Shown here piece after piece: positions 2,515 to 5,768 of a DNA stretch of 32,367 nucleotides. Position numbers and translations under genes: made by a program. The stretch comes from Chitinophaga pinensis (GTDB lineage: Bacteria > Bacteroidota > Bacteroidia > UKL13-3). The notes under the pieces are model-generated. The model saw nothing but the letters and a program-made list of their open reading frames with translations. It was not told the DNA's origin and made no database searches. Each line of letters begins with the position of its first letter. Position 1 is the first letter of the stretch. The stretch is from positions 1-32,367 of the forward strand of contig CAMCEM010000020.1 in NCBI GenBank assembly GCA_945873755.1, given 5' to 3'.

Positions 2515-3060
2515 ATGATAACTACTAAAGAAATAAAATTCGATAATGAAACGCTTGCAATGGTGCAAAGTATTATTAAGCGTTATCCAGAAGGGAAACA
2601 TAAATCGGCATTATTGCCACTTTTGCATTTAGCACAAGCTGAATTCGATGGTTGGTTAAGTGTTCCTACTATGGATTATGTAGCTTCATTGCTAAATATT
2701 AAACCAATTGAAGTGTATGAAGTGGCTTCGTTTTACAGTATGTTTAATTTAAAACCTGTTGGAAAATGTTTAATAGAAGTATGTAGAACAAGTTCATGTT
2801 GGTTACGTGGTGCAAATGAAATTGTAGAACATATTGGTAACAGATTAGGAATTAAAAATGGTGAAACTACAGCTGATGGTAAATTTACTTTAAAAACAGT
2901 AGAATGCTTGGGAAGTTGCGGAACAGCTCCCATGTTGCAAATTGGCGAACAATACTATGAAGATTTAACTTTTGATAAAGTAGATGCTTTAATTAACGAA
3001 TGGAATAATAAAACAGAACACAGCAAATACTTAGATGTAAATACATTTAGAAAAAACTAA
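2515..3060 (+). CDS. nuoE: NADH-quinone oxidoreductase subunit E
   Basis: NuoE (24 kDa subunit) carries the [2Fe-2S] cluster N1a next to the flavin subunit NuoF in the NADH-oxidising tip of complex I. The thioredoxin-like cluster ligands are C90, C95, C131 and C135 (EVCRTSSCWLRGA and VECLGSCGTAPM). The 181-residue length is typical. ATG at 2515 is chosen; a TTG seven bases upstream is out of frame. It follows the inserted HEPN gene by 11 nt. The inverted-repeat-bounded GxxExxY cassette begins 6 nt after its stop and separates it from nuoF. Confidence 0.97.
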   Translation: MITTKEIKFDNETLAMVQSIIKRYPEGKHKSALLPLLHLAQAEFDGWLSVPTMDYVASLLNIKPIEVYEVASFYSMFNLKPVGKCLIEVCRTSSCWLRGANEIVEHIGNRLGIKNGETTADGKFTLKTVECLGSCGTAPMLQIGEQYYEDLTFDKVDALINEWNNKTEHSKYLDVNTFRKN

Positions 3061-3066
3061 AACATA

Positions 3067-3087
3067 AGCCACTGATTAACACAGATT
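3067..3087 (+). repeat. Left inverted repeat of GxxExxY cassette
   Basis: A 21-nt copy of the AGCCAC-GATT-ACACAGATT repeat, 6 nt after the nuoE stop. Its reverse complement occurs at 3495-3515 with 19 of 21 matches and at 3586-3606 with 19 of 21. Together they bracket the GxxExxY gene like terminal inverted repeats. Confidence 0.85.
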
Positions 3088-3092
3088 ATTTA

Positions 3093-3491
3093 ATGGATTT
3101 GATAAAAAAATATGACAATATAAAATATCCATATCAATCTGAGTCATTTAAAATAATTGGTGCTTGTATGGAGGTTCATAAAATATTAGGAAAAGGGTTA
3201 TTGGAAATTGTTTATAAAGATGCTTTAGAAATAGAATTTAATAATCAAAATATTCAATTTGAAAGAGAGAAAAAATTTGATGTAGAATATAAAGGAGCTA
3301 CACTAAATCATAATTTTTATGCTGATTTTGTAGTTTTTGATAAAATTATTTTAGAAGTAAAAGCACAAAATGGGTTAGTTGAGGAGCATTATAAACAAAC
3401 GTTAAATTATTTAGCAATATCAAAAATGAAGTTGGCATTGTTAATTAATTTTGGAAATGATTCATTGAATTATAATAGAGTTATTTTATAA
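3093..3491 (+). CDS. GxxExxY family protein (PD-(D/E)XK nuclease-like)
   Basis: A 132-residue protein with the defining motif G35-L-L-E38-I-V-Y41. This family is assigned, as I recall it, to the PD-(D/E)XK nuclease superfamily. The expected core is present: D78 in YADFVVF, then E88-V-K90 in ILEVKA, with E38 as a possible extra acidic residue. The biological role of the family is not established, and no substrate can be named. The gene starts 5 nt after a 21-nt repeat and ends 3 nt before the inverted copy of that repeat, so the whole unit is 449 nt. It lies in the operon direction between nuoE and nuoF. A damaged copy of its 3' end follows at 3521-3585, so this unit has been duplicated or inserted more than once. 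Confidence 0.88.
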   Translation: MDLIKKYDNIKYPYQSESFKIIGACMEVHKILGKGLLEIVYKDALEIEFNNQNIQFEREKKFDVEYKGATLNHNFYADFVVFDKIILEVKAQNGLVEEHYKQTLNYLAISKMKLALLINFGNDSLNYNRVIL

Positions 3492-3494
3492 AGA

Positions 3495-3515
3495 AATCTG
3501 TGTTATTCTGTGGCT
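3495..3515 (-). repeat. Right inverted repeat of GxxExxY cassette
   Basis: AATCTGTGTTATTCTGTGGC plus T: the reverse complement of the 3067-3087 copy at 19 of 21 positions. It begins 3 nt after the GxxExxY stop codon. Confidence 0.85.
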
Positions 3516-3520
3516 CTATG

Positions 3521-3585
3521 AAAAATGAAATTGGTTTTGTTAATTAACTTTAGAAATGATTCTTTGCAAAAGAATAGGATAATAA
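3521..3585 (+). pseudogene. Remnant of a second GxxExxY gene 3' end
   Basis: The first 46 nt of this stretch match the GxxExxY gene from 3422 onward at 40 of 46 positions (the region coding for KMKLALLINFGNDSL). In the remnant the frame is broken by a stop after GTTAAT. The alignment continues with a net loss of 8 nt into a further copy of the right-hand repeat at 3586-3606. It is therefore the tail of a second GxxExxY unit lacking its 5' part. The divergence suggests an old event or insertion of a related, non-identical unit. Confidence 0.75.
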
Positions 3586-3606
3586 AATCTGTGATAATCT
3601 GTGGCT
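3586..3606 (-). repeat. Second right-hand inverted repeat
   Basis: AATCTGTGATAATCTGTGGC plus T, a further inverted copy of the 3067 repeat at 19 of 21 positions, ending the GxxExxY remnant. nuoF starts 14 nt later. Confidence 0.82.
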
Positions 3607-3620
3607 AGAAATAAATAGAA

Positions 3621-4964
3621 ATGAGTAAAAAAATATTATTAGAACATATAGACGTTCCAGGAATTGAAACATTAGAAGTGTATCGCGCTAAAGGTGGTTA
3701 TGCTTCGGTTGAAAAAGCTTTGAAAACAATGACGCAAGACGCCATTGTGGAAGAAGTGAAAAAATCGGGATTACGTGGTAGGGGTGGAGCAGGATTTCCT
3801 ACTGGAATGAAATGGAGTTTTTTGGCAAAACCTGAAGGCGTTGCTCGTTACCTAGTTTGTAATGCCGATGAAAGCGAACCTGGTACTTTTAAAGACAGGT
3901 ATTTAATGGAAAAAATTCCTCATTTGTTAATTGAAGGAATGATAACCTCAAGCTTTGCATTAGGCGCAAATACTTCTTATATTTATGTAAGAGGTGAATA
4001 TTTTTACATCATAAAAATTCTTGAAAAAGCCATTGATGATGCTTACAAAGCTGGACTTTTAGGTCAAAATATTTTAGGAACTGGATACAATTTAGATTTA
4101 CATGTTCAAGCTGGAGCAGGTGCGTATATTTGTGGGGAAGAAACAGCTTTGTTAGAAAGCTTAGAAGGTAAACGCGGAAATCCTAGAATCAAACCGCCAT
4201 TTCCGGCTATAGCTGGTTTGTTTGCTTGCCCAACTATTGTAAATAATGTAGAAACAATTGCTGCTGTGGTGCCAATTGTAAATAATGGTGGCGATTGGTA
4301 TGCTGGAATTGGAATTGGGAAGTCAACTGGAACTAAATTAATTTCAGCCTCGGGACATATAAATAAACCTGGAGTTTATGAAATAGAAATGGGAATTACT
4401 GTAGAAGATTTTATTTACAGTGAGGAATATTGCGGTGGTATAAAAAATGGTAAAAAACTAAAAGCAGTAGTTGCTGGAGGTTCATCAGTTCCTATTTTGC
4501 CAGCCGATTTAATTTTAACCACTGCCAATGGCGAAAAACGTTTGATGAGTTACGAGAGTTTGGCAGATGGTGGTTTTGCTACCGGAACCATGTTAGGCTC
4601 AGGTGGATTTATAGTAATGGATGAAACCACCAATATTGTCGAAAATTTATACACTTTTGCTCGTTTTTATCACCATGAAAGTTGCGGACAATGCAGCCCT
4701 TGCCGTGAAGGAACTGGTTGGATGGAGAAAATATTACATAAAATATTAGATGGCCATGGAACTTTAGAAGATGTAGATTTGCTTTGGGAAATTCAACGTA
4801 AAATAGAAGGAAATACCATTTGTCCGTTGGGTGATGCAGCGGCATGGCCAGTTGCCAGTGCTATTCGTCATTTTAAAACAGAGTTTGAAGAGTTTGTAAA
4901 AAATCCTAGTGCGTTTAAAAAAGTGAAACATTATCATAATATGCATGGATTAGCAACAGCATAA
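3621..4964 (+). CDS. nuoF: NADH-quinone oxidoreductase subunit F
   Basis: NuoF (51 kDa subunit) binds NADH, FMN and the [4Fe-4S] cluster N3, and accepts the hydride from NADH. The nucleotide-binding glycine-rich segment GLRGRGGAGFPTG is at residues 50-62. The FMN-binding block AGAGAYICGEETALLESLEG starts near 164. The N3 cluster ligands are C355, C358, C361 and C401 (ESCGQCSPCREGTGW and NTICPLGDA). Length 447 residues, usual for the family. The ATG start lies 14 nt after the last inverted repeat of the preceding cassette. Another repeat begins 5 nt after its stop codon. Confidence 0.98.
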   Translation: MSKKILLEHIDVPGIETLEVYRAKGGYASVEKALKTMTQDAIVEEVKKSGLRGRGGAGFPTGMKWSFLAKPEGVARYLVCNADESEPGTFKDRYLMEKIPHLLIEGMITSSFALGANTSYIYVRGEYFYIIKILEKAIDDAYKAGLLGQNILGTGYNLDLHVQAGAGAYICGEETALLESLEGKRGNPRIKPPFPAIAGLFACPTIVNNVETIAAVVPIVNNGGDWYAGIGIGKSTGTKLISASGHINKPGVYEIEMGITVEDFIYSEEYCGGIKNGKKLKAVVAGGSSVPILPADLILTTANGEKRLMSYESLADGGFATGTMLGSGGFIVMDETTNIVENLYTFARFYHHESCGQCSPCREGTGWMEKILHKILDGHGTLEDVDLLWEIQRKIEGNTICPLGDAAAWPVASAIRHFKTEFEEFVKNPSAFKKVKHYHNMHGLATA

Positions 4965-4969
4965 CAATA

Positions 4970-4995
4970 AGCCACAGATTACACAGATTTCACAG
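4970..4995 (+). repeat. Left-type repeat (outer) after nuoF
   Basis: AGCCACAGATTACACAGATT followed by TCACAG. Same family and orientation as the 3067 copy, 5 nt after the nuoF stop. It shows an internal 9-nt periodicity (ACAGATTAC, ACAGATTTC, ACAG). The inverted partner best matching its outer position is at 5750-5768. Confidence 0.8.
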
Positions 4996-5003
4996 AAAAA
5001 AAC

Positions 5004-5228
5004 ATGACTGTTAAAGAACTAATTCAAAAACTAAATACGTTACCTTCAGAATTACAAGTTGTAACTGAAGGATACGAAAACGGATTTGATATAATTAAAA
5101 CATTGGAGAGAATAAATGTAGTTGAAAATGAAGAAAAAGATTGGTGGGATGGTGAATTTATTGAAAGTAAGATCGATAGTGCAGTAGAAGTGATATATTT
5201 AAATACAGAAAGAAAAGCTAAAAAATGA
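5004..5228 (+). CDS. Small acidic protein of unknown function
   Basis: A 74-residue soluble protein beginning MTVKELIQKLNTLPSELQVV and continuing with EGYENGFDII. This resembles a widespread group of short uncharacterised bacterial and phage-type proteins that start with a helix and a P-x-x-L-x-V-V strand, but no function can be assigned. No signal peptide, membrane segment or metal motif is visible. It lies in operon direction between nuoF and nuoG, directly behind a left-type repeat and in front of a hairpin element starting 3 nt after its stop. Its position inside the nested repeat set suggests it is cassette cargo rather than a complex I component. Confidence 0.7.
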   Translation: MTVKELIQKLNTLPSELQVVTEGYENGFDIIKTLERINVVENEEKDWWDGEFIESKIDSAVEVIYLNTERKAKK

Positions 5229-5230
5229 TT

Positions 5231-5303
5231 GTCCTCGGTTGGTGTCCTCACCAATCGAATGTAGTTGGAGAGTGCCGATAGCTATCGGCAACCAACCACG
5301 GAC
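5231..5303. repeat. Imperfect inverted-repeat element (73 nt)
   Basis: The ends are GTCCTCGGTTGGT and ACCAACCACGGAC, which are reverse complements except for two positions. Inside are GGTGTCCTCACC and GCCGATAGCTATCGGC, each self-complementary. Related copies lie at 8561-8650 and, shortened, at 8695-8750. This is a small structured dispersed repeat with no coding potential. Confidence 0.75.
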
Positions 5304-5314
5304 AGAAATAGAAT

Positions 5315-5334
5315 GCCACAGATTACACAGATTT
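5315..5334 (+). repeat. Left-type repeat (inner)
   Basis: GCCACAGATTACACAGATTT, nearly identical to the 4970 copy and in the same orientation. It lies 19 nt before the start of the small exported-protein gene and pairs with the inverted copy at 5692-5717. Confidence 0.8.
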
Positions 5335-5353: not shown

Positions 5354-5662
5354 ATGAAAACAAAAATTATTCTAATTGCAGTAATTACCATGATTGGTAT
5401 TTCGTTATTTAGTGCATTTAAGCAAAGTGAAGGTTCTAAAAAGTTTTTGACTATGACGGTTAGTTACAGTCAAATTGTTGTTGTTGATGAGAATAATAAA
5501 ATAGAATCTGTAGCTAAATGTGAGAAAGAGTATGGGGCTTTATTACAACAAATAAATTTAGAAATGAATAATATTTCAAGAAGAGGGTTTCAGTTAATTA
5601 ATTCAAGCCAAGTTCAAGTGGGTGGTGGCAATAATCCAACCATTTATGTTTTTGAAAAATAA
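5354..5662 (+). CDS. Small exported protein of unknown function
   Basis: A 102-residue protein with a short basic N-terminus (MKTK) and a hydrophobic stretch IILIAVITMIGISLFSAF, consistent with a signal peptide or N-terminal anchor. The mature part ends in RRGFQLINSSQVQVGGG followed by TIYVFEK. This faintly recalls the short beta-strand end of DUF4177-type proteins, but I cannot assign it to that family. It lies in operon direction between nuoF and nuoG, bracketed by inverted copies of the CCACAGATT repeat (5315 and 5692). It looks like cassette cargo, not a complex I subunit. Confidence 0.65.
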   Translation: MKTKIILIAVITMIGISLFSAFKQSEGSKKFLTMTVSYSQIVVVDENNKIESVAKCEKEYGALLQQINLEMNNISRRGFQLINSSQVQVGGGNNPTIYVFEK

Positions 5663-5691: not shown

Positions 5692-5717
5692 AATCAGAGT
5701 AATCTGTAAATCAGTGG
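5692..5717 (-). repeat. Right-type repeat (inner)
   Basis: The reverse complement begins CCACTGATTTACAGATTAC, a diverged member of the repeat family and closest at its start to the 3067 copy (CCACTGATTAACACAGATT). With 5315-5334 it brackets the 102-residue gene in a unit of about 403 nt. Confidence 0.7.
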
Positions 5718-5749
5718 TAAAAACAATAAACAAGCAAAAAAGCATTTAA

Positions 5750-5768
5750 AATCTGTGAATCTGTGGCA
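5750..5768 (-). repeat. Right-type repeat (outer)
   Basis: AATCTGTGAATCTGTGGCA; its reverse complement is TGCCACAGATTCACAGATT. It lies 28 nt before the nuoG start. With 4970-4995 it forms the outer pair around both small genes (799 nt). Confidence 0.75.

Follow-up and report, generated by a model that had tools for sequence, protein, structure and literature searches.

GxxExxY nuclease genes between inverted word arrays, exemplified in a nuo operon, suggest a bacteria-wide set of miniature cassettes

The window, by which we mean the whole analysed stretch of 32,367 nucleotides, contains nuoC-D-E-F-G-H, and three of the junctions between these genes hold additional small ones. The junction between nuoE and nuoF holds a single gene for a GxxExxY protein, together with inverted repeats that we call arms. 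Its features are as follows.

2515 to 3060, + strand: nuoE, the upstream host gene (PF01257, E=1.1e-56)
3067 to 3094, + strand: left arm AGCCACTGATTAACACAGATT(ATTTAAT) with the two words CCACTGATT and ACACAGATT (inverted repeat I1)
3093 to 3491, + strand: GxxExxY protein, a minimal Cas4/RecB-like PD-(D/E)XK nuclease with D78, E88-x-K90 and Q102-xxx-Y106 intact (TIGR04256, PF13366, invariant columns, AF2, Foldseek)
3488 to 3515, + strand: inner right arm AATCTGTGTTATTCTGTGGCT (inverted repeat I1; exact pattern match)
3519 to 3580, + strand: remnant of a GxxExxY 3' end (direct repeat D2, spacing 99)
3586 to 3606, + strand: outer right arm AATCTGTGATAATCTGTGGCT (sequence reading, pattern match)
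3621 to 4964, + strand: nuoF, the downstream host gene (PF01512, 2.4e-48)

The arms at 3067-3094 and 3488-3515 are 28 nt long and 82% complementary. Their inner 21 nt match at 19 of 21 positions and begin 5 nt before and 3 nt after the gene, a geometry that an earlier note on this DNA had described and that the repeat search bore out. The same note placed the unit between nuoE and nuoF, where it does lie, but the end it set at 3515 does not hold, since the remnant at 3519-3580 and the second right arm at 3586-3606 make the locus composite. The remnant is 78% identical to 3406-3478, in register, and is probably the trace of an older or tandem GxxExxY copy; the outer flank AGAAATAAATAGAAATG of the second right arm is identical in the relic allele of a sister species (G006). 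With up to two mismatches, the window arm matches four places in its own genome, three of them at the nuoE-nuoF locus, and is therefore not a high-copy repeat.

The GxxExxY family is known by name only, as a widespread annotation without an assigned role. The protein of the window has 132 aa and matches TIGR04256 (E=3e-40, 137.2 bits vs a cut-off of 35) as well as PF13366 PDDEXK_3 (E=2.2e-36, 125.2 bits vs a cut-off of 22). The motif G35xxE38xxY41 and the core D78...E88-V-K90, which the earlier note had read from the translation, hold up: sets of 18 and of 50 relatives show no change at G35, E38, Y41, D78, E88 and K90; Y106 is invariant too, and Q102 is kept in at least 90%. An AlphaFold2 model (pLDDT 92.6, pTM 0.85; elements H15-32 H38-51 E56-66 E69-81 E85-90 H97-110 E114-119) has an alpha-beta-beta-beta-alpha-beta core, which with D...ExK and QxxxY identifies a RecB/Cas4-like PD-(D/E)XK fold. 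The best solved fold in Foldseek is Cas4 SSO0001 (E=1e-4), followed by LHK-Exo, Argonaute-associated Cas4-family proteins and RecE. By sequence no relatives were found in the PDB (best matches at E 0.2-0.8, not significant), and the protein was unmatched in PADLOC. Given the invariant catalytic residues, the low dN/dS and the Cas4/RecE/LHK-Exo fold, an active enzyme is to be expected. The likeness to Cas4/RecB nucleases extends to the motif order E...D...ExK...QxxxY, but the GxxExxY protein is only the core of about 115 residues and sits in a nuo instead of a cas operon; because it has a single cysteine (C25), it lacks the Cas4-type four-cysteine Fe-S cluster and is thus not a Cas4 protein. 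A link of GxxExxY to reverse transcriptases (PMC8934634) was considered and rejected, as it came down to a single mis-called cas4 neighbour.

Arms are a general feature of GxxExxY genes. The window's own genome (3.13-Mb assembly) has three further members, each accompanied by a repeat type of its own: at rplS-valS ACCACATAGAAACATAGAGAACATAG flanks the gene on either side, a second paralog has CCCGCAGATTTCGCAGAAAATCGCAGATT on either side, and the one at sufD-sufS has CCACAGATT plus ACCGCAAAG words. In the taxonomic family, 43 of 58 genomes carry TIGR04256 matches above cut-off, up to 9 copies each, and for 99 such genes the comparison of the upstream flank with the reverse complement of the gene's own downstream flank gave a median of 30, vs 19 with the downstream flanks of others. 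A broader survey took the best 80 loci from a scan over 84,980 species (Bacteroidota, Chloroflexota, Cyanobacteria, Verrucomicrobia, Planctomycetes, Spirochaetes, Neomarinimicrobia, Fibrobacterota and Proteobacteria). The 74 scorable loci among them had a median arm score of 35.5, compared with 18 for the 136 ORFs next to them (P=1.5e-22) and with 19 when upstream and downstream flanks were mismatched (P=5e-28). A score of at least 30 was reached by 62% of the 74 loci, vs 1.5% of the neighbouring ORFs and 5% of the mismatched pairs, the latter control being conservative because different elements share words; the window unit scores 35. Bracketing of other GxxExxY genes, a question raised by the earlier note, is hence found both among the paralogs of this genome and across phyla. 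These statistics and the permutations reported below rule out a chance inverted repeat beside an ordinary gene, to which AT-rich intergenic DNA might lend itself, and we regard its probability as practically nil.

The arms consist of short arrays of two to four tandem degenerate words of about 8-10 nt each, either (A/G)CC(A/G)C-AGATT, -AGAG, -AAAG, -ATAG and CCACGAAT, or -TGATT words that come after a leader GTCTGAA(C/T)C. Measured from the outer edge of the left arm, the stop codon of the preceding gene is at most 12 nt away in 57% of scored cases; in 30 of 88 it falls inside the arm, and at metH the preceding gene takes its stop codon from the left arm. At a GxxExxY locus of Spirosoma oryzae (L241) the arms are very long (alignment score 217) and are built from palindromic modules that repeat, perhaps an array that was amplified recently.

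The type of arm follows the clade of the protein. In a tree of 178 GxxExxY proteins all GTCTGAA-type arms fall into one clade of 63 rows (support 99), and CACATAG arms into one clade that covers several sites. After dereplication at 70%, arm class changes 15 times over 62 labelled rows, compared with 30-39 changes in 300 shuffles. Since the class labels had been defined after inspection of the sequences, a label-free test was run on pairs from different sites with less than 70% protein identity. The more alike two proteins are, the more alike are their arms (rho 0.30), a value reached in none of 500 permutations (maximum 0.08), and a control with outer flanks 250-450 nt away gave rho -0.02. 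This correlation across sites implies that the unit travels as protein plus arms. Naturally we infer that the arms may be recognised by their own GxxExxY protein, although co-inheritance alone, as shared descent of the whole unit, gives the same signal. On balance we lean towards the reading that the unit belongs to a family of transposase-free, RAYT-like resident mini-elements, with a nuclease that would act on its own arms; the ambiguity of the correlation counts against such self-action. Separately, the GTCTGAA-arm clade is often found inside restriction-modification operons (hsdM/hsdS/hsdR, type III mod; L090, L121, L122, L212, L213, L216, L221, L224, L227, L237, L240, L251 and others), and at L122 the reading frame of an HsdS-like ORF takes in an arm at its N-terminus.

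Comparison of sister species reveals turnover of these units. In other genera nuoE and nuoF are separated by a gap of 4-5 nt or by an intact GxxExxY unit (469-600 nt). Within the genus we compared the junction in ten species (G000-G009), with the following states.

Full unit: G000
Relic of 104 nt with both arms and both gene ends, an internal deletion: G005, G006, G008
Solo left arm: G001, G002, G009
No arm: G003
Empty, 5 nt: G004, G007

Empty sites in relatives, which the earlier note had named as the place to look, are thus present. In a nuoCDEF tree G004 and G007 branch from within the relic species, and grouping full and relic species as one clade is rejected (AU P=3.7e-13), so the empty state is derived from an occupied one. 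Outside the arms, 3 nt and about 11 nt have gone as well, and plain deletion may explain the loss, which speaks against a self-acting mini-element. The same holds for target-site duplications: none is recognisable at the full, relic and empty nuoE-nuoF alleles, and other empty sites are too diverged.

Other junctions are used repeatedly as well. The sufD-sufS junction takes members of at least four GxxExxY clades, whose words differ from clade to clade. There, in G000 and G001, a gene of the AAG clade lies between outer arms of the kind that flanks the resident GATT unit of G004, G005 and G007, probably as a nested or replaced unit. In the latter three species (L321-L323) the sufS start codon appears to be the terminal GTG of the right arm, as an in-frame stop lies just upstream. 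The metH1-metH2 junction takes three different unit types within one genus: a GxxExxY gene with CACAGAG words (G002, G005, G006, G008), a four-helix-bundle gene with GCTTCTAGC words (G001, G003, G007) and another four-helix-bundle gene with ATAGACCATGG words (G000, G004, G009). The rplS-valS junction is occupied in G000, G001, G005 and G009 and vacant in G002, G003, G004, G007 and G008. GxxExxY junctions are therefore recurrent, yet at nuoE-nuoF the pattern is compatible also with vertical descent, and recent near-identical copies at different sites were not seen.

The residents themselves look settled. At fixed sites dN/dS is mostly 0.03-0.14 (two very close pairs give 0.23 and 0.51, on few changes). 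At rplS-valS, a well-aligned site, the arms are 94-98% identical while the flank outside them reaches 41-64%; this contrast is weaker or absent in some other sets (sufD-sufS in g1; the left side at metH). GxxExxY genes were found in 8 of 72,556 plasmid records, at 4 loci in IMG/VR and in none of 50,697 phages. Most residents are old, vertically inherited and under strong purifying selection, unlike a freshly moving parasite. Such selection at a fixed site hints at a role at the host level, a further point against the self-acting mini-element. It might even suggest a domesticated chromosomal gene, that is, an ancient insertion that serves the host, for example in DNA repair or defence, with arms as operators or terminators and no present mobility. 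The long residence under low dN/dS, the scarcity on plasmids and in viruses, and the restriction-modification neighbourhood of one clade would all suit this explanation. We nevertheless consider it quite unlikely, because loss, decay and replacement are frequent at the same junctions and the arm type follows the unit across unrelated sites.

The arms are not bound to the GxxExxY gene. Outside rRNA, four-helix-bundle genes of TIGR02436 (S23p/bAvd-like; L153-L182) likewise stand between inverted arrays of words of about 7 nt, with up to 12 copies per genome and a median arm score of 34 vs 18, at least 30 being reached by 60% vs 5.6%. They share junctions with GxxExxY units, as at metH (L346, L348-L351, L355), and the arm architecture is common to two unrelated tiny gene families. 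Within the window the same can be seen in the nuoF-nuoG junction, where a pattern search found two left-type and two right-type arms of the window unit's kind around two small genes, orf74 (5004-5228) and orf102 (5354-5662).

4970 to 4989, + strand: left-type arm AGCCACAGATTACACAGATT before orf74
5315 to 5333, + strand: left-type arm GCCACAGATTACACAGATT before orf102
5692 to 5718, + strand: right-type arm AATCAGAGTAATCTGTAAATCAGTGGT after orf102
5750 to 5767, + strand: right-type arm AATCTGTGAATCTGTGGC before nuoG

Neither orf74 nor orf102 has a Pfam match; orf102 is duplicated in G007, and both are present in G002 (L041, L034). Arms of the window type can thus hold other cargo, and since four-helix-bundle genes with different words are arranged alike, the architecture by itself does not call for the GxxExxY nuclease. 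This qualifies the idea of a very small cassette in the earlier note: the different states of the nuoE-nuoF site among sister species, from full to empty, and the arm type that moves with the clade agree with it, whereas the part given there to the nuclease is weakened. The same observations, which tell against a self-acting mini-element, would fit mobility in trans, in which another enzyme (a Y1/RAYT-like transposase, or host recombination between words) moves GxxExxY, four-helix-bundle, orf74 and orf102 genes as interchangeable cargo with functions of their own. Y1 transposases, 2-15 per genome, are present in every genome of the genus and could act in this way. A common enzyme does not, however, predict words that are specific to the gene family and, within GxxExxY, to the clade, and the Y1 transposase flanks that were read (five loci, a small sample) have no word arms. 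We therefore judge mobility in trans to be unlikely, though worth keeping in mind.

A different explanation places the element at the level of RNA. As in the intervening sequences (IVS) of 23S rRNA, the operon transcript would fold back on itself at the arms and be cut by RNase III or by the unit's own nuclease, and the insert would be removed from it. Size and layout resemble the Coxiella IVS (428-444 nt, 28-bp terminal stem; PMC4990558), S23p-type genes have the same architecture, and the predicted RNA fold pairs the left with the outer right arm (z=-2.15). Moreover, among units between co-directional genes 125 of 133 are co-oriented with them (125 vs 8), which is unlike random insertion; ordinary genes, though, are co-oriented about as often (98 of 110, 98 vs 12). 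Pairing in RNA would tolerate G-U-compatible differences between the arms more readily than A-C ones, yet left and right arms differ about equally often in the two ways (83 vs 90, P=0.65), and for the relic and empty alleles a DNA-level explanation is required in any case. An RNA-level element accordingly strikes us as very unlikely.

By working principle the GxxExxY unit is nearest to RAYT/REP elements and to the 23S IVS, but it lacks the enzyme that defines the former and the location that defines the latter. Like RAYT/REP systems (PMC3733652 and general background), it is a resident, usually vertically inherited single gene between inverted cognate short repeats, with gene-less repeat units and with repeats in intergenic, often unidirectional DNA. 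It encodes a PDDEXK_3 nuclease and not an HUH Y1 transposase, however, and its arms are tandem-word arrays without a GTAG tag, low in copy number and drawn from a bacteria-wide word vocabulary. The 23S IVS with an S23p ORF (PMC4990558) is similar in its unit of about 430-450 nt, its terminal inverted repeat of about 28 nt, its one tiny ORF and its sporadic occurrence, whereas the GxxExxY unit lies in protein operons instead of rRNA, has a nuclease in place of S23p and gives no signal of selection for RNA pairing. Free-standing homing endonucleases are also small nuclease genes that recur at conserved junctions with full and empty alleles, but GxxExxY units have no intron or intein, carry inverted arms, and one junction takes different unrelated units. 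Terminal inverted repeats and internal-deletion derivatives such as the 104-nt relics are common to MITE/IS elements, from which the unit differs by having no transposase gene and no recognised target-site duplication.

For the RAYT-like resident mini-element, the following sequence of events can be proposed. A single GxxExxY gene between inverted word-arms, lodged between co-directional genes, would be read from the host operon. The protein would bind its own words, probably one monomer per arm, and might nick or cut at or near the arms, after which host recombination would mend the broken ends. The unit of arm, gene and arm could thereby occasionally be lost, replaced at a junction by another unit or copied to another junction, while for the most part it would be inherited vertically as a resident repeat-associated nuclease. 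Cleavage and transposition are putative steps here, which weighs against self-action, and we infer no more than that the unit may be 'self-propagating', as the earlier note had put it. A bolder claim, which we advance tentatively and with somewhat less than even confidence, would be a new class of mobile DNA: a minimal Cas4/RecB nuclease that co-evolves with its word arms moves its own gene between operon junctions across bacteria without a transposase, and a parallel four-helix-bundle class competes for these junctions.

Taken over about 170 relatives, the data suggest that GxxExxY units are bacteria-wide, apparently undescribed miniature cassettes, with a repeat type for each branch of the protein; in open-access papers no account of the arms was found, subscription papers and preprints being outside the scope of that search. 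The clade-specific arms offer a direct, testable substrate, namely for each protein its own words. Word arms would also explain word-type repeats between bacterial genes, with the possibility of a new, transposase-free way for a gene to spread, and the architecture and junctions in common with S23p/IVS-type genes tie the unit to the unsolved movement of rRNA intervening sequences.

Two further observations concern the neighbouring junctions of the window. The nuoD-nuoE junction (1813-2503) contains, in this species only, a pair of nucleotidyltransferase (MNT-like) and HEPN genes; in relatives it has inverted TGAATTTTGAATG / CATTCAAAATT repeats and is thus another repeat-bounded insertion site. 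A separate palindromic element (TGTCCTCGGTTGGTGTCCTCACCAATCGAATGTAGTTGGTGAGGACACCAACCACGGACA) lies at 5229-5303 and recurs in the nuoF-nuoG junctions of L034, L037, L040, L041 and L042.
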